A DNA stretch of 64,000 nt from an uncultured Pseudohongiella sp. (GTDB taxonomy: Bacteria > Pseudomonadota > Gammaproteobacteria > Pseudomonadales > Pseudohongiellaceae), in NCBI GenBank assembly GCA_902531515.1, contig CACAEJ010000009.1, forward strand, positions 1 through 64,000. Direction: 5' to 3'. The notes beneath the pieces are model-generated. The model searched no databases and was not told the origin of the DNA. It worked only from the letters and a program-made list of their open reading frames with translations. The position numbers and the translations under genes were made by a program. Of the stretch, positions 2,388 to 33,226 are shown piece after piece (positions within the stretch are counted from its first letter, which is position 1; each line of letters begins with the position of its first letter).

Positions 2388-5300
2388 ATGTCATTTTATA
2401 CCTCTTTAACTGGACTTCAGGCCGCGACAACAGAGTTGTCTGTAACTTCAAATAACATTGCTAACGCCGGCACATCAGGTTTTAAAAGAGCCGATGCCGA
2501 TTTTGGCGATATTTTTGCGAGCACGCCGCTTCAAAAAGCTGGCTCAATCGCGGGCTCTGGGGTAGCTCTGAATCAGATTACTCAGCAGCATACTCAGGGT
2601 AACATCGAATTTTCGAGTAACTCTCTTGACCTAGCGATCACTGGAGATGGCTACTTTAAACTTAAAACTACAGACGGAGCCGAGTTGTATACCAGGAATG
2701 GTGGTTTCATGCTCGACGAGCAGAACCAGCTAGTAAATAGTGCTGGACAAGCGTTGCAGATTCTTCCGGTCGACTCGATAAATAATGCAAACTTTGAAGC
2801 AGACACAACTGGCTTAACAGTTCAACGTAAAACTGTAGGTGAATTTGTGCCAACGACGGAAATTAACCTAGGGTTAAACTTACCGTCCTCTGCTACCCCA
2901 ATTACAGCAGCCTTCAACAAAGACAAGCCAGATACGTATCATAAGACGACTTCCTTCACCACCTACGGTGCGAACGGAAATGCACAGCTTGCGACTATTT
3001 TTTATGTTAAAACTGCTAACCCTACTGATGCTTCCCCCTATAGCAAGTGGCAGACTTATGTGACTATAGATGGTGAAGATGTTGTATCTGCCTTAACTCA
3101 ATCTGCTGGAGCGGGAAACGATCCCCAATTCATTAATAAGTTTGGCGAAATCAAAACTCAGAAAGAACTGGACGCGTACGCAAAGCTAACGACAGATCCG
3201 GTAACCGGAGCCGCGATTAATCAAGCGGAGTACTTAATCACAGCTGGTACGACCTATCGCAAATTTTCCTTAGATAAGTTGCAGACAGCAATTCCCTCTG
3301 CGAATGCCTCTGTAACTACGGAAATACCTGCTGCTTCCTCGTACAAAGATGGACTTAATCTAACTGGCGGGAGCTCTGGGGTGAACTTTGCTACAGGTTG
3401 GACTAACGCTCAACTTCAAAACATGTTTCAGGTCAAGGTAGATGACTCGGTTTGGAGAGACATCAGCCTGCCAAGACTGATGAGCACGAGCCACCTCTCC
3501 TCAGCAACAGGTCGCCCTGGAACAGCAGGCTCACAAACACTCTCAGGAAAACAAATCGCTACAGAGTTGACCAATGAGTTGAACAAGGCCTTTGGAGATG
3601 ACAACGTCTTTGATTTTGCAGCTCTCAATACCAAGACTCTAACAATTAAGAGATATCCCGTCGGAGCAACCTCGCTCGCCGCTGCGAGTCAGTGGGTAAG
3701 CATTCCGTTGAGTGGCGGCACCGGCATACTTGAGGCGGCTAACGCTGAGAAAGGCGGCTTAGTTTTTCATGATGGAACCGGAAATAATACAACGCGTAAG
3801 GCTACTGGTTGGCAGGTCGCGGCAGCCTTAACGAACTACTTAAATTTTGTTGATGCGAAAAAGGCAGCCTGGACAGACGTCACGGTAGAGTATGATGAAA
3901 AGAATCAGGGCTTTATGGTACACCAGAGCTCTTCTCTAAAAGCCACGCCTGACATCATTCGCCTCGGGGGCAGCGATGCTGCAACTAATGCGATTTTTGG
4001 TGGCATTGGCACCCTTGCTAATGATACTGGGATTGATGACGGCTCAGCTCTTTCATATATGACGGTTAATGGATCAAAACAACTTCTCGGTAACGTTAGA
4101 GGTAATGGAACAGCGCTTACTGCAAGTAGCAGAAGATCAGGCCTCGAGGTTACTTATGCTGGGGGTAAGTTTACATTTAATAGTGGTACTACTGGAGACG
4201 CGTCTAGCATATCAATAAGGGCAACAAGTGACGGCAATGAAGCTACTCCAACATTCACCGCAGGCGGCGTAAGAGCAGGAGCATTGCTTGGATTAAGTGC
4301 AAACGGTGGTCTGACACTTACGAATAATAATAAAAATCAAATTACTCAGGCTGTTTCGTCACTGGTTGAAAATTTACCCACCGTTAGGGGTCAGGCATCA
4401 CAGCCAGCGAGATTGGTCGGGAATGCCATGGGTGTTGATACAGAACAAGCATTCAACGTGACCGGGGCAAATCAAAGTATTACGGCTGTAATAGATGGTG
4501 TAACTAATACCGTTAAACTCACGCTGGGCCAATACAATATAGATACATTTACGACCGAACTCCAGACCCAGCTAAACCGAATGGCAGACGCGAATGGAAA
4601 GACAATAAATAATGTTGTTGTTGGATTTGACTCGGCTAAAACTGCACTAACGGTCACCGGATCGACTACTTCCTCGAAGTCTTTCATCCAATTACTAGGA
4701 AGCCAAGATTGGGGTCTTACGGATGTGGATGTTGCCTTTGGATCGAGTTCGACATACGCAAAAATCGACACGGATACGCTAGCTGGCAGTAATTTATATG
4801 TAACACAGGATCCGGCAACGGGACTGTGGAAGGAGAGCGTCGACAAAGCAGATTTTGATGCTGGAGACATTCCTTACTGGACACCGATCTTCTTGGATAG
4901 GGGTGAAATCACCTTTGACACTTCAGGGGCGTTAGTTTCTCCTCAAGCTAAATACAATCTGGAGAGTAACAAAGCGACGGGTACGACAATTCAATTGGCG
5001 TATACTGGAAGTACGCAATACAACTCAGCATTCGCAGCAATATCACAGTCGCAAAATGGTAAGCCAGAGGGTGACATCAATGGTATCAGCATCAATGATG
5101 ATGGTCTGATAGTTGCGAGCTACTCGAATGGAACTCAAAAGTCCCTCGGTAAAATTGTAATCGCGAATTTTAACTCAAACTCCGGTCTAACTCAGATTGG
5201 TGACGCTGCATGGACGGCCTCAGGAAAATCCGGTCCTGAAAGATTGGGCGAGGCGGGTTCAGCAGGATTTGGGACCATTCGCGCAGGTTCGCGAGAAAGG

Positions 5301-5426
5301 TCGAATGTAGATTTAACGAACGAGCTGGTTGACCTGATTGCCGCACAGAGAAATTTTCAGGCAAATGCGAAGGCAATTGAAACCAATACTGCCATGACCA
5401 GCGCAATCATAAACATTCGTGGGTAA
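2388..5426 (+). CDS. flgE: Flagellar hook protein FlgE, unusually long (1012 aa)
   Basis: N-term MSFYTSLTGLQAATTELSVTSNNIANAGTSGFKRADADFGDIF; C-term NVDLTNELVDLIAAQRNFQANAKAIETNTAM. Confidence 0.95.
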   Translation: MSFYTSLTGLQAATTELSVTSNNIANAGTSGFKRADADFGDIFASTPLQKAGSIAGSGVALNQITQQHTQGNIEFSSNSLDLAITGDGYFKLKTTDGAELYTRNGGFMLDEQNQLVNSAGQALQILPVDSINNANFEADTTGLTVQRKTVGEFVPTTEINLGLNLPSSATPITAAFNKDKPDTYHKTTSFTTYGANGNAQLATIFYVKTANPTDASPYSKWQTYVTIDGEDVVSALTQSAGAGNDPQFINKFGEIKTQKELDAYAKLTTDPVTGAAINQAEYLITAGTTYRKFSLDKLQTAIPSANASVTTEIPAASSYKDGLNLTGGSSGVNFATGWTNAQLQNMFQVKVDDSVWRDISLPRLMSTSHLSSATGRPGTAGSQTLSGKQIATELTNELNKAFGDDNVFDFAALNTKTLTIKRYPVGATSLAAASQWVSIPLSGGTGILEAANAEKGGLVFHDGTGNNTTRKATGWQVAAALTNYLNFVDAKKAAWTDVTVEYDEKNQGFMVHQSSSLKATPDIIRLGGSDAATNAIFGGIGTLANDTGIDDGSALSYMTVNGSKQLLGNVRGNGTALTASSRRSGLEVTYAGGKFTFNSGTTGDASSISIRATSDGNEATPTFTAGGVRAGALLGLSANGGLTLTNNNKNQITQAVSSLVENLPTVRGQASQPARLVGNAMGVDTEQAFNVTGANQSITAVIDGVTNTVKLTLGQYNIDTFTTELQTQLNRMADANGKTINNVVVGFDSAKTALTVTGSTTSSKSFIQLLGSQDWGLTDVDVAFGSSSTYAKIDTDTLAGSNLYVTQDPATGLWKESVDKADFDAGDIPYWTPIFLDRGEITFDTSGALVSPQAKYNLESNKATGTTIQLAYTGSTQYNSAFAAISQSQNGKPEGDINGISINDDGLIVASYSNGTQKSLGKIVIANFNSNSGLTQIGDAAWTASGKSGPERLGEAGSAGFGTIRAGSRERSNVDLTNELVDLIAAQRNFQANAKAIETNTAMTSAIINIRG

Positions 5427-5452
5427 TGAATCAGCTTTAGGGGCAAATATCG

Positions 5453-6235
5453 ATGGATAAACTAGTATTTACATCCCTAAGTGGAGCCAAGACTGGAACG
5501 ATTCAGCGCACAATGCTGACCAACGATCTGGCCAATGTCTCGACTGTTGGGTTCAAACGAGCCTCGTTTCAGCGAGCCGTTCCCGCCCAGTTAGATGGCC
5601 CTGGTTTCGCTGTTCGCTTTCAACCTTTGGTAGAAAACAGGACAGACATTGTAGATCTAAAGTCTGGCACACGAATCGATACGGGTAACCCGCTTGATGT
5701 AGCAATGAATGATCAAACAGTGATGGGTGTTCTGACGGAACAAGGGCAATTAGCCTTCACTCGAAGAGGTGACCTTAGAGTTTCGGAACTTGGTTTTCTT
5801 GAAACTGCTAACGGCTATCTGGTTGCTGGCGAAGCTGGTGGTCCTATAACTGTTCCTGAAGGTGGAAGCCCTACTATAACTCCCGATGGCACTGTGTTTT
5901 TTAATGCGGCCTTAGCAGATCCTGCAGCGGCTGCAGCGCCACCGGTCCAAATTGGTCAGATTTTAATTAGGGATGCTTCTGGGACAACTTTGCAAAGGCG
6001 CCTCGATGGCTTGTATGAGCAACTTGGAGCAAATGGGGCAGGCGGTGATATCGCTCAGGGTCCAGAGATAGCTTCACTATCAACAGGAGCGCTTGAGGGT
6101 AGTAATGTTAATCCAGTCGAGGTTTTAGTGAGCCTGATGGATTATTACAGATCGTTCGAAACTCAGATGAAATTGGTTAAAAGTGCAGAAGAGTTGGATC
6201 AGTCGGGAACACGCCTGATGCAAACTGCCAACTAA
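5453..6235 (+). CDS. flgF: Flagellar basal-body rod protein FlgF
   Basis: Rod-protein N- and C-terminal motifs; position between flgE and flgG. Confidence 0.93.
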   Translation: MDKLVFTSLSGAKTGTIQRTMLTNDLANVSTVGFKRASFQRAVPAQLDGPGFAVRFQPLVENRTDIVDLKSGTRIDTGNPLDVAMNDQTVMGVLTEQGQLAFTRRGDLRVSELGFLETANGYLVAGEAGGPITVPEGGSPTITPDGTVFFNAALADPAAAAAPPVQIGQILIRDASGTTLQRRLDGLYEQLGANGAGGDIAQGPEIASLSTGALEGSNVNPVEVLVSLMDYYRSFETQMKLVKSAEELDQSGTRLMQTAN

Positions 6236-6251: not shown

Positions 6252-7037
6252 ATGGACGCTTCAATGTGGATTGCAAAAACTGGATTATCTGCTCAGTCGA
6301 CCAGAATGTCAGTAATTGCAAATAATTTAGCGAACGTAAACACGGTTGGATTTAAGAAAGACCGCGCGAATTTTGAAGATCTTTTGTATCAGAGAATAGT
6401 TCAAGCAGGCGCCCAGGCTGATGTTTTAGCGCAAACCCCAACGGGTTTGATGCTTGGAACCGGTTCACGGGTGGTTTCCACCGAGAAAATACATCGCCAG
6501 GGCAATATGGTCTCCACCGAGAACGCGCTGGATTTGGCGATCAGTGGAGACGGATTCTTTGCTATTCAGCAGGCTGATGGAACCATAGCCTATACAAGAG
6601 ATGGATCCTTCAAACGTTCCAACTTGGGAGCACTAGTAACGGCATCAGGTCAGACAACTATTCCCGCGATTAACCTCCCTCAGCAAGCTATCAGTATCGC
6701 TGTTGGAAGGGATGGCACAGTAACTGCTGAGCTCGCCGCTGGAGGTGGAGCTGTCCAAGTTGGACAATTACAGATCACACGATTCGTTAACCCTGCCGGA
6801 TTGAGGGCAATGGGCCGTAACTTGTATGCAGAATCAAATGCGAGTGGTCCTGCGATAGTTGGTATTCCTGGCGATCAGGGAGCCGGTATGATCACGCAAG
6901 GTTCTTTAGAACAATCTAACGTAAATGTTGTCGAAGAAATGGTGAATATGATCGAAACACAAAGAGCTTACGAGATTAATTCAAAAGCCATTTCCGCAGC
7001 AGACGGCATGCTTAGATTTTTGAATCAAAACTTATAA
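6252..7037 (+). CDS. flgG: Flagellar distal rod protein FlgG
   Basis: MWIAKTGLSAQSTRMSVIANNLANVNTVGFKKDRANFEDLLYQ...LEQSNVNVVEEMVNMIETQRAYEINSKAI. Confidence 0.97.
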   Translation: MDASMWIAKTGLSAQSTRMSVIANNLANVNTVGFKKDRANFEDLLYQRIVQAGAQADVLAQTPTGLMLGTGSRVVSTEKIHRQGNMVSTENALDLAISGDGFFAIQQADGTIAYTRDGSFKRSNLGALVTASGQTTIPAINLPQQAISIAVGRDGTVTAELAAGGGAVQVGQLQITRFVNPAGLRAMGRNLYAESNASGPAIVGIPGDQGAGMITQGSLEQSNVNVVEEMVNMIETQRAYEINSKAISAADGMLRFLNQNL

Positions 7038-7053
7038 CACCGAGTTAGGATAA

Positions 7054-7740
7054 ATGATGAAATTTCGTGAAGTATCAATTTGTCTGTTCAGCATCCTTTC
7101 AATAGGCTGTTCGTCTTCTCAGCTGATTACCGGAGCCGGGCTTGATGATTTTGAGATTATCTATCCTGAACCGAGTCTAGCGCCAGCGAGGATAACGGGT
7201 TCGATTATGGATAACGGAGCCTCTTTGTACCCAGCGGGACGTGCCTATGCGGCTGGAACCGTTAGGGTAGGGGATATTGTGACTATCCTGCTCAACGAAT
7301 CTGCGCAGGCGACTCGAGAGAACGGATTGGCAACTGAGAGAGTTTCGGTAAATAATCTTACGCCGGGGGTATTTGGAGACCAAACTTTGTTTGACGAGTA
7401 TGCGAACCTTGGTGAACTTGGATCTACTATTAGTAGTAACGGAACCGGAACTGCAGGCCAATCTGCTACTTTAACAGGCAGTATTTCGGCTGTTGTGACA
7501 GAAGTCATGAGTAATGGTAATTTAGTTGTGTTCGGAGAAAAGCAACTGGAGTTAAACGAGGGTAGTGAGTACATAAGAGTTCGTGGTGTTGTAAGGCCAG
7601 AAGATATCCAGCCAAACAACACGATATTATCTCGTCGACTCGCAAACGCTCAATTTTCATATAGCGGAGCCGGAGAGCTAGCTCGATCTACTCGTGTTCC
7701 ACCTATAACCAATATTTTATTTGGCTTATGGCCTTTTTAG
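7054..7740 (+). CDS. flgH: Flagellar L-ring lipoprotein FlgH
   Basis: Lipobox LSIGCSS; VGDIVTILLNESAQATRENG; GNLVVFGEKQLELNEGSEYIRVRGVVRPEDI. Confidence 0.96.
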   Translation: MMKFREVSICLFSILSIGCSSSQLITGAGLDDFEIIYPEPSLAPARITGSIMDNGASLYPAGRAYAAGTVRVGDIVTILLNESAQATRENGLATERVSVNNLTPGVFGDQTLFDEYANLGELGSTISSNGTGTAGQSATLTGSISAVVTEVMSNGNLVVFGEKQLELNEGSEYIRVRGVVRPEDIQPNNTILSRRLANAQFSYSGAGELARSTRVPPITNILFGLWPF

Positions 7741-22259: not shown

Positions 22260-23180
22260 CTATTTAAGCAGAGTCAAAACGGTTGCGGTCCTAGCGTTGG
22301 CTTGAGCGAGTACAGCGGTCGCTGCCTGAGAGATAACTTGCTGTGCCGCCAACTTGGCTGTATCAACCGCATAGTCAGTGTCGCCAATAAGCGAAGCTCC
22401 AAGCTCTTTGGCAACAGCGCCTCCAGCCGTTGCCTCAATCGCGAACTCAATGGACTTGATATCGCCTGCGACCTCTCCCACGGATGCCCCTAGGTATGCC
22501 ACTATGTTATCGAGCTTTGCTCTCGACAATTGGGCATTAGCAGCGGTGGTGATATTTTCCTGCATAGTAGCAGGAATTGGGGCCGCTGCGGCGACCGCGG
22601 TGAGGCTCATTGCGGTACCGCCGCTGTTAGCTGCACCAGCCGATGACGCACCACTTGCGATTCCAGCACCATTAGCTGCCTGTGCGTCGGGCTGCCAATC
22701 GTCAACGGTGATTGTGATATCAGCCGCACCCGCCGACTCACCCATCCTGATTACCAGGTCGGTTCCCGTCATCACAGCAACACCATTATAAGCCGTATTG
22801 TCTGCTAGCCGGTTCCATTCGGTAAGCAGCGCACCAAACTCAGAGTCCATTGCATATCGGTCGTGCGCAGGGACTATGGTATTAGACGCGGCGACTGCTA
22901 GCTCTTGCATGCGCACAGCCATCTTATGAATCGTCATACCTGTAGCTTCGACGAGTTTCATTCTTGCCAGTCCACTATTCAAGTTCGCTAACGCGGTCCT
23001 TGATTCTGCGGCCTCTATGGTCATGTTTGTATACAGACCATAAAGGCCAGCGTCGGCGTGTCCTGCACCTACTTTCGCGCCGCTTGAGATCCTTGCCATG
23101 GTCTTATCCATGAGCCTCTCATTTGAGTTTATAACGTTTGCTGCAGAATGTGCTGCGTAGTTATAGTTTACTATAGACAT
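22260..23180 (-). CDS. Flagellin-family protein (306 aa)
   Basis: NSNERLMDKTMARISSGAKVGAG...; C-term DTDYAVDTAKLAAQQVISQAATAVLAQANARTATVLTLLK. Confidence 0.88.
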   Translation of the reverse strand: MSIVNYNYAAHSAANVINSNERLMDKTMARISSGAKVGAGHADAGLYGLYTNMTIEAAESRTALANLNSGLARMKLVEATGMTIHKMAVRMQELAVAASNTIVPAHDRYAMDSEFGALLTEWNRLADNTAYNGVAVMTGTDLVIRMGESAGAADITITVDDWQPDAQAANGAGIASGASSAGAANSGGTAMSLTAVAAAAPIPATMQENITTAANAQLSRAKLDNIVAYLGASVGEVAGDIKSIEFAIEATAGGAVAKELGASLIGDTDYAVDTAKLAAQQVISQAATAVLAQANARTATVLTLLK

Positions 23181-23238
23181 TAAAATTACTCCTAAGTGTC
23201 TAGTTGATTTAAGAGCTATTAAAACAGCTCCACGTGTC

Positions 23239-23310
23239 TGACCTCTGACCTCTGACCTCTTTTACACCTCTGACCTCTGACCTCTTTTACACCTCTGACC
23301 TCTGACTCCT
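23239..23310. repeat. Tandem heptamer TGACCTC array with higher-order 25-bp unit
   Basis: (TGACCTC)x3-TTTTACACCTC-(TGACCTC)x2-TTTTACACCTC-TGACCTC-TGACTCC; between two flagellin genes. Confidence 0.95.
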
Positions 23311-26415: not shown

Positions 26416-27360
26416 TTACTGTAGTAAGGCCAATACCGTTTGGGGCGCGGCATTTGCTTGGGCAAGCATTGCAGTTGCTGCTTGCGCTATTATTTGAGTC
26501 CTTGCCAATTCCGTCGTCTCGGCCGCGTAGTCGGCATCCTCGACCTGGCTCTGAGATTTCTCTAGGGCCGTGGCGATGTTTGCTAAATTGTCTGATGCTC
26601 TCTCAAGGCGGTTGATGTAGGCTCCGTTCTGAGCGATTTCCCTGCTCATCCCTGTGATGGCCGTGTCTAGTTTAGTTACTGCTGCCGTGGCAGCAGCCCT
26701 GCTTTGTATATGATCAAAAGATCGTGCGTTTGCCACTGGAGTTGCTGCTAAGTTATTTTGATTCCGAGTAAAGTTGAAAGCTTGCGTGGCAGCTGCATTG
26801 TCATCATCTGCAGCTGCAGCGGTAGCGCCGGTTACGTTTTGATTAGCTGTGGCGTGGTCAGGGCTCCACTCTCGAAGAGTTAGAGTTACAGTAGCGCCAG
26901 CCGCAGTTCCTCCATCTAATCTGATGTTGAATGAGTTATTAAAAGTGGACATTCCTGCAAAGCTATTCCAGCGCGTGTTAGCTGCAATTCTCGTCCACTC
27001 CAACCCTAGTTGGTTATATTCAGAGTCAAGGGCTAACCTATCATCCACCGTTAGCGTGTCCGATGATGCTTGAACTGCTAATTCTTTCATACGAATTACC
27101 ATGTCTAGAATGTTTGCGCCCGCCGCTCCATATGTTTGAAGCATGGAAATGGCATCCATTGCGTTCCGGACTCCCTGGCGGTCAGCTCTAGCGGCAGCTT
27201 GGAGTCTTGCAGCGATAGCGACACCTGCAGGGTCGTCGGCGCCAGAGTTTATTCTTTTTCCGGTGGACAATCGCTCCATTGCTTGATTCATAGATCGCGC
27301 ATTTAGAGTCATAGCCTTGTGAGCTATTAAGGATGGAATATTTGTGTTTAGTACGGTCAT
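26416..27360 (-). CDS. fliC: Flagellin
   Basis: MTVLNTNIPSLIAHKAMTLNARSMNQAMERLSTGKRINSGADDPAGVAIAARLQA...DADYAAETTELARTQIIAQAATAMLAQANAAPQTVLALLQ. Confidence 0.95.
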   Translation of the reverse strand: MTVLNTNIPSLIAHKAMTLNARSMNQAMERLSTGKRINSGADDPAGVAIAARLQAAARADRQGVRNAMDAISMLQTYGAAGANILDMVIRMKELAVQASSDTLTVDDRLALDSEYNQLGLEWTRIAANTRWNSFAGMSTFNNSFNIRLDGGTAAGATVTLTLREWSPDHATANQNVTGATAAAADDDNAAATQAFNFTRNQNNLAATPVANARSFDHIQSRAAATAAVTKLDTAITGMSREIAQNGAYINRLERASDNLANIATALEKSQSQVEDADYAAETTELARTQIIAQAATAMLAQANAAPQTVLALLQ

Positions 27361-27543: not shown

Positions 27544-28005
27544 TCAGTTTATTTCTCTCAAAAAACGTAAGCCGCTCAATTCTTCGCGGAGTTGAGATAA
27601 AATCGCACACACGGCTTGATAGGAATTAAGTGGCGATAGCTTGGATGTCAGCCAACATGCTTTTTCCGCGAATCTGCAAGCCTTCAACGCGTGGTATTTC
27701 TTTGAATTCCGTGTTGGATTATTTGATCTGGGGTTGAATCTTAAGAGGTTTAACTTAAATGAAATATATTTTTTAGGTAACGAAACTAGGTTTGATATCC
27801 AGGAATGAATGCCGACCGTACGAAGTGTTACTGTAAAAGGTTCTGTCCGGGAATTGGATAACTGCCTTGACGAGGCAGCGACCACACCACGATTCATGTC
27901 GTGTGTTGCTTGAGGGCCCCAATACTGATGTATTGGTGGTAGTTTGTAGGCACCGTCAGCCCCAACGGGATTCGTGCCGTAAATGTATGTTCCTATGTTC
28001 GACAT
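27544..28005 (-). CDS. Uncharacterised 153-aa protein in the flagellin array; possible minimal/degenerate flagellin-like protein
   Basis: ORF with SD-like AGGA and an upstream sigma28-like promoter; C-terminal SYQAVCAILSQLREELSGLRFL weakly resembles the flagellin C-terminal helix AQAATAMLAQANAAPQTVLALL. Confidence 0.55.
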   Translation of the reverse strand: MSNIGTYIYGTNPVGADGAYKLPPIHQYWGPQATHDMNRGVVAASSRQLSNSRTEPFTVTLRTVGIHSWISNLVSLPKKYISFKLNLLRFNPRSNNPTRNSKKYHALKACRFAEKACWLTSKLSPLNSYQAVCAILSQLREELSGLRFLREIN

Positions 28006-28048
28006 CAGAGCATTCCTATAATTGGAATTAGTTAGAGTTACGAGTTTC

Positions 28049-28072
28049 TGACCTCTGACCTCTGACCTCTGA
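28049..28072. repeat. Tandem heptamer (TGACCTC)x3 in the 5' leader of the 27544-28005 ORF
   Basis: TGACCTCTGACCTCTGACCTCTGA. Confidence 0.95.
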
Positions 28073-30058: not shown

Positions 30059-30104
30059 TTTTTGACCTCTCATACCTTAATGACGATAAAAGATTACATC
30101 GAGC

Positions 30105-30131
30105 CAATCGGATTCTAGCCTATAAACTTTA
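30105..30131 (-). promoter_or_regulatory. sigma28-like promoter for fliS
   Basis: Minus strand TAAAGTTT-N11-TCCGATTG. Confidence 0.75.
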
Positions 30132-30288
30132 TACAAATGCAAAATGCATTAACGTATATAAAAGGATGCTCCGAATCTATAGATCTATATTTGGCTACAA
30201 AAATTAAAGGTTAGTTTTGTAGTGACGATTGGCCCGCTATGCAATTGGGGCACTGTTCGAAAGTGCACGCATAAGGTGGTAAGGAGCA

Positions 30289-30363
30289 AGTCTAGCTGAC
30301 CGGTCGAAGACAATTTTCAGAGGTCAGAGCTCAGAGGTCAGAGAGGGTCAGCTAGGCTTTTTT
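30289..30363 (+). terminator. Terminator-like hairpin with AGAGGTCAG repeats in the loop (element A)
   Basis: AGTCTAGCTGACC (30289-30301) / GGTCAGCTAGGCT (30346-30358) followed by TTTTTT; 44-nt loop with CAGAGGTCAGAGCTCAGAGGTCAGAG. Confidence 0.7.
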
Positions 30364-30479
30364 ATAAGCAACGGAACCAGATAAAGAAAAGATGGTTTTC
30401 AGACTTGCTAAATAGAAAACAAGTTTTCGGAAATTTACCACTGATGTTATGCCTTGAATCTTAGAGTGTAAGTTGATCG

Positions 30480-30506
30480 TAAAGTAAAAAACCAAGATGT
30501 CGATTG
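30480..30506 (+). promoter_or_regulatory. sigma28-like promoter for the plus-strand flagellin
   Basis: TAAAGTAA-N11-GTCGATTG, about 77 bp before the ATG. Confidence 0.7.
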
Positions 30507-30582
30507 GCTCAACATACGAAGTGATACCCTTTTATTTATAGTAAGTTTTGAAGTTAAACGAGGAAAGCTAGAGGTCAGAACT

Positions 30583-31653
30583 ATGAGTGTAATCAATACT
30601 AATATGGCAGGCATAATTGCAACAAATGCAATTATCAAGAACGACCGGGATCAAGAGACCGCGATGGAGCGTCTCTCTACTGGAAAGCGGATAAATTCTG
30701 CTGGTGATGATGCGGCTGGTCTCGCAATTTCCGAGAGGATGAAGGCTGAGGTTAGTGGCCTAAAGGCGGCTACACGAAATGCTAACGACGCCATTTCCAT
30801 GCTGGAGACTGCAGAGGGTGCCTCTGTGGAGATCGTCGAGATGCTGCAACGCATGCGTGCTTTGGCGGTCCAGGCAGCAACTGATACCAACTCTAATACA
30901 GACAGGGCAGCACTCGACCTTGAATTTGGACAGCTGATGAACGAGATTGTGAGCATCGCCTCGCAGACCACCTGGAACACTATGACTATTATGAATGGTA
31001 GTGCACCTGGCGCAGCAGACGTTACTACCAAGGCCGTCACTCAAATGACTGCCACTATTCAGCTTGGTAAGAGTGCAACTCAAACAACCACAGTTAATTT
31101 AAAGTCTTGGGATCCACGCAACACTATCGACGAGCAGAGAATTCCGGGGCGGATAGCGCGCGACGGCCTCGCGGCAGTAGCCCCGTCCGCCGGCTCGAAT
31201 ACGGGTAACGACCAATTTGACGGAACCGACGGTGGTACGGTCGCTAACCAGTCGAACTCGGCGTTTGGTGCTGCCAGACTCTGGACAGGTGGTGATAATG
31301 GAGCCGTAGGTGGTGCTGATATTGCGGGCGGCGCCCAGAACGCGGACAAGAGAATCAATATTGAAACTCGGCTTGGAGCTAACGATGCCTTAACTCAGTT
31401 GGATAGAGCTATTACAGCAGCATCGTCGGAGCGAGCCATGTACGGTGCTTACATTAATAGGATGGAGCACACGGGGAACAATTTGACGAATGTTGCCCGG
31501 CATCAGGAACAGTCACGTAGCCGGATAGCTGATGCAGATTACGCAGTGGAAACATCAGAATTATCGCGGACGACAATTATCGCTCAGGCGAGCACGGCAA
31601 TGTTGGCCCAGGCGAATCAATCCAAGCAGATAGTACTAGCTCTCCTAGAGTAA
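30583..31653 (+). CDS. fliC: Flagellin (356 aa)
   Basis: MSVINTNMAGIIATNAIIKNDRDQETAMERLSTGKRINSAGDDAAGLAISERM...DADYAVETSELSRTTIIAQASTAMLAQANQSKQIVLALLE. Confidence 0.96.
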   Translation: MSVINTNMAGIIATNAIIKNDRDQETAMERLSTGKRINSAGDDAAGLAISERMKAEVSGLKAATRNANDAISMLETAEGASVEIVEMLQRMRALAVQAATDTNSNTDRAALDLEFGQLMNEIVSIASQTTWNTMTIMNGSAPGAADVTTKAVTQMTATIQLGKSATQTTTVNLKSWDPRNTIDEQRIPGRIARDGLAAVAPSAGSNTGNDQFDGTDGGTVANQSNSAFGAARLWTGGDNGAVGGADIAGGAQNADKRINIETRLGANDALTQLDRAITAASSERAMYGAYINRMEHTGNNLTNVARHQEQSRSRIADADYAVETSELSRTTIIAQASTAMLAQANQSKQIVLALLE

Positions 31654-31666
31654 TTGCTTTACCCAG

Positions 31667-31719
31667 CCTAGCTGACTGCTTCTCTTTGGGTGGAAGAGGT
31701 CAGAAAGCAGTCAGCTAGG
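31667..31719 (+). repeat. 3' UTR hairpin with AGAGGTCAG (element B)
   Basis: CCTAGCTGACTGCTT (31667-31681) / AAGCAGTCAGCTAGG (31705-31719), 15 bp perfect; AGAGGTCAG at 31695. Confidence 0.85.
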
Positions 31720-31761
31720 TGCAGTGTTCGTTGGTGCCCATCCTAGAGGCACCGACAACGA

Positions 31762-31825
31762 ATTTGGCCCAAGGTGTTAGGGGTGAGACCTCTGACCTCC
31801 TTGCCTCAAGGACCTTGGGCCAAAT
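31762..31825. repeat. Hairpin element C, 14-bp stem with 36-nt loop
   Basis: ATTTGGCCCAAGGT / ACCTTGGGCCAAAT around loop GTTAGGGGTGAGACCTCTGACCTCCTTGCCTCAAGG. Confidence 0.95.
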
Positions 31826-31865
31826 ACCCATCCGCTCCTCCTCAAGGAAGAAGAAGGGCAACCGA

Positions 31866-31929
31866 ATTTGACTCAAGGTGTTAGGGGTGAGACCTCTGAC
31901 CTCCTTGCCTCAAGGACCTTGAGTCAAAT
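31866..31929. repeat. Hairpin element D, 14-bp stem with the identical 36-nt loop
   Basis: ATTTGACTCAAGGT / ACCTTGAGTCAAAT around the same loop; two compensatory pair changes relative to element C. Confidence 0.95.
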
Positions 31930-32115
31930 ACTTAACAACGCCATACCCTCATCTAACACCCTTTTTCAAGCCAGACTCTTCACGCAATTCTGATCTTTGA
32001 GAGCCGTGTCTCATTCTAGACAGTGTTTTTTATGGAAGACAAATCATTGGGATTTCTCTGTCACTTTTCTTACATCTAATTATCTAAAATACTGAAAAAT
32101 ATAAGAAAAACATTG

Positions 32116-32132
32116 TTGGCCCACTAATTGCT
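32116..32132 (+). promoter_or_regulatory. sigma54 promoter upstream of the second activator/fliE operon
   Basis: TTGGCCCACTAATTGCT with correct GG-GC spacing. Confidence 0.75.
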
Positions 32133-32158
32133 ACTACTCAGCAGAGGAAGAACACTGA

Positions 32159-32200
32159 AAGGTAATTAGAAGGTAATTAGAAGGTAATTAGAAGGTAATT
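32159..32200 (+). repeat. 11-bp tandem repeat AAGGTAATTAG x3.8 abutting the start codon
   Basis: AAGGTAATTAG AAGGTAATTAG AAGGTAATTAG AAGGTAATT-ATG. Confidence 0.95.
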
Positions 32201-33226
32201 ATGACCGGCATGACAGATGATTATCCCTTTGTCTTTGTAGATAAAGAGAGTGTGCGTTTATTTGAGTTGGCCTCTAAGGTCGCTAAATCGGACGTTCAGG
32301 TATTGATTACGGGCCCGTCGGGAGCAGGAAAGGAGGTTCTTGCGCGCGTAGTCCATGAGTCCTCGAAACGCTCCAGCTTTCCGTTTGTGGCTCTTAATTG
32401 CGCCGCGATCCCGGAAAATCTGGTAGAAGATACTCTGTTTGGACACGAAAAAGGAGCATTCACAGGAGCGACTCAAATCAATAAAGGCTTTTTTGAGGAA
32501 GCTCACGGGGGTACCTTGTTTCTGGACGAGATTGGCGAAATGCCAAAAAATCTTCAATCGAAGTTACTTAGGGTCCTGCAAGAAAAACAGATTTACCGGG
32601 TTGGTGCTACCAAACCCATCGATGTAAACGTCAGAATTCTATCCGCAACAAACATTAATATTAAAAACGCTATCCAACGCAAAGAATTTCGAGAGGACCT
32701 TTACTTTCGTCTTGGAGGTTTTGTCCTAAACATTAAAGAACTCGCTATGAGACCCGGGGACATTGAGCCTCTGGCGAGAATATTTATTCAGAAACATAGC
32801 AATGATTCTCAGGTCGTGATCTGTCGAAATGCGGTGAGAAAACTTTTGACTCACCATTGGCCAGGAAATGTCAGAGAGTTGGAAAATGTCATGTTGCGAG
32901 CAATTATCCTATCCGAAAGCAACGAAATATTTGAGCAGCATATTACTTTTGATGAGTTTCCAGATGATGAACGAGAAACTTTACCTCCTCAGATAAATCT
33001 TAGAGAAATTCACAACGATAACGTTCTTCCGTTTAATAGTATCAACAAGCTATCTGATCTTAGATCTAATTCCGAGTTGAATGAAATATTAACCGCGCTA
33101 AAGATGAATTCAACGAGAGACAACGCAGCGAAAGAGCTTGGGATAAGTCCGAGAACTTTGCGTCAGAAACTAAATGACTTTAGAAAAGCTGGGTTACCAG
33201 TGCCGGGGCCATATGCCCGCACATAA
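32201..33226 (+). CDS. sigma54-dependent activator (AAA+ and Fis HTH, no receiver), FleR/FlrC-like
   Basis: GPSGAGKEVLARVVHESS, TLFGHEKGAFTGA, GTLFLDEIGEMP, HHWPGNVRELENVMLRA, HTH AAKELGISPRTLRQKLNDF. Confidence 0.9.
   Translation: MTGMTDDYPFVFVDKESVRLFELASKVAKSDVQVLITGPSGAGKEVLARVVHESSKRSSFPFVALNCAAIPENLVEDTLFGHEKGAFTGATQINKGFFEEAHGGTLFLDEIGEMPKNLQSKLLRVLQEKQIYRVGATKPIDVNVRILSATNINIKNAIQRKEFREDLYFRLGGFVLNIKELAMRPGDIEPLARIFIQKHSNDSQVVICRNAVRKLLTHHWPGNVRELENVMLRAIILSESNEIFEQHITFDEFPDDERETLPPQINLREIHNDNVLPFNSINKLSDLRSNSELNEILTALKMNSTRDNAAKELGISPRTLRQKLNDFRKAGLPVPGPYART

Follow-up and report, generated by a model that had tools for sequence, protein, structure and literature searches.

Genomic context of the flagellin locus

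The window analysed here, the whole 64,000-nucleotide stretch from an uncultured Pseudohongiella sp., a marine gammaproteobacterium, carries in its central part a flagellin gene followed by four consecutive hairpins, A to D, and by a gene for a sigma54 activator (Table 1). The row of hairpins begins behind the flagellin stop codon and has a folding energy of -135.9 kcal/mol over 285 nt. Elements C and D had been placed between the flagellin and the sigma54 activator gene by a sequence-only reading; Pfam supports both gene names, and most copies of the element in the genus lie directly before sigma54-activator and fliE genes (names again by Pfam).

Both elements are 64 nt long with perfect 14-bp stems and identical inner 36 nt, and they are offset by 104 bp. 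Two stem pairs differ, each with compensation: pair 6/59 is G-C in C and A-U in D, and pair 8/57 is C-G in C and U-A in D. The earlier description of coordinates, stems, offset, identical inner part and compensated differences proved exact. The 46-nt core common to C and D matches the window at those two places only and none of 100 dinucleotide-preserving shuffles. The view that these are not ordinary terminators was likewise upheld: an intrinsic terminator, with a GC-rich stem and a U-tract, was rejected because no T-tract follows C or D, and no terminator-like site was detected within 30074-32250.

Table 1. Positions of the flagellin gene, the hairpins, the candidate promoters and the motif-bearing sites in the window.
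Feature	Position	Strand	Remarks
GAGGTCA array in the leader of flagellin gene 22260-23180	23237..23303	-	spacer GAGGTGTAAAA repeated
Three tandem GAGGTCA, intergenic, 690 nt upstream of flagellin 26416-27360	28047..28070	-	
fliS ribosome-binding region GAGAGGTCAAAAA	30056..30073	-	contains the 7-nt GAGGTCA
Sigma28-like promoter 1, upstream of the leader hairpin	30205..30231	+	TAAA-N15-GACGATTG; pattern match only
Leader hairpin	30288..30359	+	two GAGGTCAG motifs in loop, then T6; covarying stem, two relatives
Sigma28-like promoter 2, proximal to flagellin	30480..30506	+	TAAA-N15-GTCGATTG; pattern match only
Flagellin Shine-Dalgarno region GAGGTCAG	30571..30578	+	exact antisense of C/D loop core CTGACCTC; 9 bp if the next A is included
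Flagellin gene (Flagellin_N, Flagellin_C)	30583..31653	+	Pfam
Hairpin A, immediately behind the flagellin stop codon	31667..31719	+	covarying stem; sense motif GAGGTCAG at 31696-31703 on loop side
Hairpin B, between A and C	31727..31758	+	GGTGCC...GGCACC; covarying stem
Element C, anti-RBS hairpin	31762..31825	+	14-bp stem, 4x4 internal loop, 8-bp stem, 12-nt loop ACCTCTGACCTC at 31788-31799
C-D spacer, 40 nt	31826..31865	+	
Element D, second hairpin copy	31866..31929	+	loop 31892-31903
Sigma54-like promoter of the downstream activator gene	32117..32132	+	pattern match only

For comparison we used the Pseudohongiella MAG L008 and the gammaproteobacterial MAGs L009 and L010, which we take to be the genomes numbered G128, G124 and G110, respectively, in the wider genus sample. 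Besides the two sites upstream of the flagellin gene, the sigma28-like pattern TAAA-N15-G[AT]CGATTG has one other match in the 64 kb, and the pattern of promoter 1 is also found in L008 and L009. The sigma54-like promoter at 32117 suggests that C and D belong to the flagellin transcript and not to the leader of the activator gene. Directly at the start codon of that gene end four head-to-tail copies of AAGGTAATTAG (32159-32201), so that its ribosome site is itself repeated. Slippage in this array, which was not seen in the relatives' sequences compared, could tune translation of the activator.

Sense copies of the motif found at the flagellin Shine-Dalgarno region recur on the loop side of hairpin A, in the loop of the leader hairpin and in the leader arrays. 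The array at 28047-28070 is kept in L008 and L009, although the 153-aa ORF at 27544-28005 is not conserved there, and that ORF was dropped as a gene. In the organism's own genome 11 of the 19 copies of GAGGTCAGAG fall in the flagellar stretch, and two of these 11 are C and D read on their antisense strand. The segment 30205-30370 combines a sigma28-like promoter with a sense-motif hairpin and T6; judged by these signals, it could encode a small sponge RNA of its own, ahead of the proximal flagellin promoter.

Covariation and strand of the folded RNA

A covariance model built from the copies in the window, L008 and L010 recovered 17 copies (13 distinct sequences) in 8 of 84 genus genomes, several of which, like the organism's own (67% complete), are incomplete; a second model confirmed the copies. 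All 17 lie in flagellin 3' regions on the same strand as the flagellin, with no copies outside such regions in these genomes, and C and D are the sole copies in their own genome. Given the 13 distinct sequences and no further prompting, RNAalifold returned an outer stem of 14 bp, separated by a 4x4 internal loop from an inner stem of 8 bp that carries a 12-nt loop; the loop consensus is ACCYCUGACCUC across the 17 copies of the eight genomes. The loop segment CTGACCTCCT is invariant in the 13 sequences and ranks among the most conserved parts of the element.

In all 13 sequences every pair of the outer stem forms, and 6 of its 14 pairs have changed on both sides. For the structure as a whole, 97.6% of cells are paired and eight pairs carry double changes. 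The covariation score of 0.327 compares with 0.202 for shuffled alignments, none of 500 shuffles reaches the score, the paired fraction or the number of double changes, and control structures slid along the alignment are at most 58% paired. The proposal of selection on a folded RNA is therefore supported, and the observation on C and D is confirmed in a stronger form than first described.

The same comparison corrects one detail. The identical 36 nt had been taken for an unpaired loop, but they form either a three-way junction or, as the relatives indicate, the 8-bp inner stem with its 12-nt loop. Folded alone, C and D each have the three-way junction as their minimum free energy structure, and in the window's copies this junction masks the 12-nt loop by about 4 kcal/mol. 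The single inner stem keeps 93% of its pairs in the 13 sequences, whereas the two inner helices of the junction keep just 74% and 68%, and we rejected the junction as the functional structure; it may be an alternative conformation confined to the window's clade. Exposure of the loop is clear in the G017, G004, G058 and G104 types. On these folding models the window's C and D might switch between closed and open forms, an idea to which the other lineages lend no support.

Folding z-scores for C and D are -5.8 and -5.2 on the plus strand and -3.5 and -3.8 on the minus strand, so that both strands beat shuffled sequences, the plus strand clearly more. Counting both stems together, there are 21 G-U cells versus 3 A-C cells. 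Changes in the inner stem are mostly from G-C to G-U, which points to the flagellin-sense RNA as the selected strand. The sequence-only reading had allowed for RNA or a cruciform; this bias, together with a loop that makes sense on one strand, favours RNA in the flagellin sense and disfavours the cruciform.

Constraint on C and D relative to their surroundings

Element C is identical at 64 of 64 positions in the window, L008 and L010. Element D differs at one position between the window and L008 (63 of 64 identical) and is the same in L010 as in the window, giving a range of 98-100%. The flagellin gene itself shows 76.8% DNA identity between the window and L008, and 39.9% at fourfold-degenerate sites in this one comparison. 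Between C and D the length of the spacer is kept in the three genomes at an identity of 60-82% (68% for the window versus L008), and directly after D identity falls to 29-48%, the 31 bases that follow being 29% identical between the window and L008. Each element also keeps its own stem signature in the window, L008 and L010, which indicates that the duplication and the compensated differences predate the split of these genomes.

Two arrangements in the relatives deserve separate mention. L008 carries tandem flagellin genes (5001-6071 and 6554-7624) that encode identical proteins, each with a 3' module, the second without D; this may reflect a recent duplication, gene conversion or an assembly effect. 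In G017, one flagellin (L073, 5301-6694) reads as fragments in two ORFs, and two of the three copies of the element lie between it and the next flagellin in a long gene-free stretch, possibly a decayed gene whose hairpins have survived.

Complementarity of the loop to ribosome-binding sites

The core of the loop, CUGACCUC, is the exact reverse complement of the octamer GAGGUCAG. This octamer is the flagellin Shine-Dalgarno region in the window, L008/G128, L009/G124, G017, G004, G058 and G023. The match, missed by the sequence-only reading, is on sequence grounds the main clue to function. Exact complementarity to the ribosome-binding sites of candidate targets is what a base-pairing regulator would show, with the qualification that the loop is partly masked in the window's C and D. 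A similar motif precedes fliS, as the exact GGAGGTCAG in G004, G017 and G023 and in closely similar versions in the window, G128, G058 and L009; GAGGTCA is also present at fliE in G004 and G017.

The predicted duplex between the loop and the ribosome-binding site has an energy of -14.2 to -16.4 kcal/mol, which is equalled by 0-1 of 300 shuffled loops. When candidate starts were ranked at five loci, the top authentic starts were those of flagellin, fliS or both. Only one candidate in the window (18253) scored higher, and it is an internal codon of a different gene; in G058 the best score falls on an internal codon of flagellin. An element lies downstream of 9 of 11 flagellin genes with a GAGGTC ribosome site versus 0 of 24 without one (Fisher 8e-7; hand counts on readable contigs of genes that are related and not independent, so that the value is a guide and not a probability). 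The exceptions are a G093 flagellin, which has the GAGGTCAG site but lacks an element, and the first of the three flagellins that stand in tandem in G058.

Several observations limit how far the match can be read. GAGGT is also a plain Shine-Dalgarno sequence, and part of the complementarity is expected of any anti-Shine-Dalgarno sequence. Loop core and flagellin ribosome-binding site are both invariant, and no covariation between them is visible. Genome-wide counts of GAGGTCAGN(2-6)ATG do not separate element-bearing genomes from others; the signal sits at the flagellin and fliS starts, not in genome-wide counts.

Relation to known RNA families

No Rfam 15 model matches the window above its gathering threshold, and over hairpin A the search gave sub-threshold animal miRNA models only, on the minus strand. 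Under strict filters the RNA family was not found outside the genus in samples of 392 genomes of the order, 137 of the family and 369 of the class, nor in the plasmids and phages searched.

The nearest parallels are parallels of principle. The FliX sRNA of Escherichia coli derives from the fliC 3'UTR, is sigma28-driven and processed from the parental mRNA, acts on fliC mRNA and lowers the number of flagella (PMC10578931). C and D share its location, in a flagellin 3'UTR behind sigma28-like promoters (assigned by pattern only). FliX pairs inside coding sequences, those of fliC and of genes for ribosomal proteins, and a REP sequence is part of its short form (PMC10578931), whereas the C/D loop matches the ribosome-binding sites of flagellin and fliS.

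In architecture, the tandem C/D pair, with covarying stems and an invariant anti-Shine-Dalgarno loop core, resembles the alpha-r14/cuckoo sRNAs, such as NfeR1 of Sinorhizobium meliloti, which consist of repeated hairpins with identical anti-Shine-Dalgarno loops and differing stems (PMC10746234, PMC7143759). Those alphaproteobacterial RNAs have CCUCCUCCC loops, their own sigma70 promoters and mostly transport targets (PMC10746234, PMC7143759). By contrast, the C/D loop reads ACCYCUGACCUC, its core CUGACCUC is extended to match flagellar genes, and the hairpins are located in a flagellin 3'UTR. The likeness to FliX and alpha-r14 is put forward as one of working principle.

Two further systems are more distant. 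CcsR1-4 of Rhodobacter sphaeroides are a set of small RNAs cut from a single mRNA 3'UTR (PMC8625941), but they come from ccaF1 and function in stress and C1 metabolism instead of flagella. The Campylobacter jejuni RNA CJnc230 (FlmE) is processed from a flagellar mRNA and represses other flagellar mRNAs (PMC11187230); it differs from C/D in its parent, the hook gene flgE, and its targets, flgM and Cj1387c, and is likened here by description only.

Proposed function and alternatives

Our favoured explanation, which we hold to be probable with some reserve, takes C and D for tandem anti-Shine-Dalgarno hairpins, part of the 3'UTR or derived from it, that exert RNA feedback on the translation of flagellin and FliS. 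They would be tandem copies of one hairpin family, carried by a sigma28-type flagellin transcript in its 3'UTR, and each would present the 12-nt loop ACCUCUGACCUC with its core antisense to the flagellin ribosome-binding site. As flagellin mRNA builds up, the hairpins, attached or freed as stable 3'UTR-derived small RNAs, would pair with that site; further translation of flagellin and FliS would then be held down and synthesis of filament protein limited. The sense copies in the leader hairpin, hairpin A and the leader arrays might serve as extra binding sites or decoys. We infer transcription of the hairpins, their processing or release, pairing in vivo, the sign of regulation and the balance of cis and trans action from the covarying structure, strand, constraint, location and complementarity that were computed directly. 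Five of the six genomes tested have Hfq, which makes a small-RNA route available; it was not found in the organism's own genome (67% complete).

A more elaborate version, offered tentatively, treats the flagellin mRNA as a self-contained sense/antisense RNA circuit, in which one message would gauge its own output and set FliS and the other flagellins. Leader hairpin decoys, ribosome-binding site, hairpin A and the antisense C and D would compete for one 8-nt code, and the sigma28-driven leader hairpin would possibly be a sponge RNA in its own right, ending in the T-tract that follows it.

The hairpins might instead protect or process the 3' end of the mRNA, with strong stems that stabilise flagellin mRNA by blocking 3' exonucleases or offering sites to RNase III. 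A very abundant mRNA is well served by stable 3' ends, and four strong hairpins in succession after the stop codon, with outer stems kept perfectly paired, are what such a role would call for. The match of the loop would then be incidental; yet a protector needs no fixed loop, and here a loop segment is invariant and matches the ribosome-binding site of its own gene exactly, which leaves this explanation unlikely.

About equally unlikely is a restricted form of the pairing model, in which C and D act in cis only: loop and ribosome-binding site of one mRNA would close a translation-silent circle, to be opened by a signal such as completion of export. Every element does lie on a flagellin transcript, and the nearest ribosome-binding site is that of the gene itself, but fliS, a separate transcript, also carries the motif (exact GAGGTCAG in G004, G017 and G023), which argues for action in trans.

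We give still less credence to the idea that GAGGUCAG and the hairpins are sites of an RNA-binding protein controlling flagellin translation, with the antisense C and D shaping or masking those sites and no trans pairing. The sense motif does occur within the structured loops of hairpin A and the leader hairpin, and in leader arrays, as in protein-binding RNAs, and CsrA and FliW control flagellin mRNA elsewhere (PMC4894983). The transcribed strand of C and D, however, carries the antisense and not the sense motif, and most motif copies do not contain the GGA core of CsrA sites.

A feature of the DNA itself, be it a cruciform, a recombination site of flagellin copies or a REP/MITE-like dispersed palindromic repeat, seems very improbable: perfect tandem inverted repeats near duplicated flagellins, and the two identical flagellins of L008 with a module on each, would suit it, but G-U pairs are biased to one strand, the stem difference between C and D persists among their orthologues in three genomes, and plasmids and phages yielded no copies. 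A REP/MITE dispersed repeat or mobile element was rejected, given only two copies in the own genome and, in relatives, copies in the same context after flagellins only.

Significance

RNA control of flagellin from its own message is already known from E. coli FliX. C and D would be an independent case of very sharp conservation, in which flagellin and, exactly or nearly, fliS share a readable 8-nt code, and they add an RNA family absent from Rfam 15. They open direct feedback on flagellin at its ribosome-binding site to a test by a single reporter and a pair of compensatory mutations. The near-frozen anti-RBS hairpins suggest an uncharacterised RNA feedback circuit on the production of the flagellar filament.
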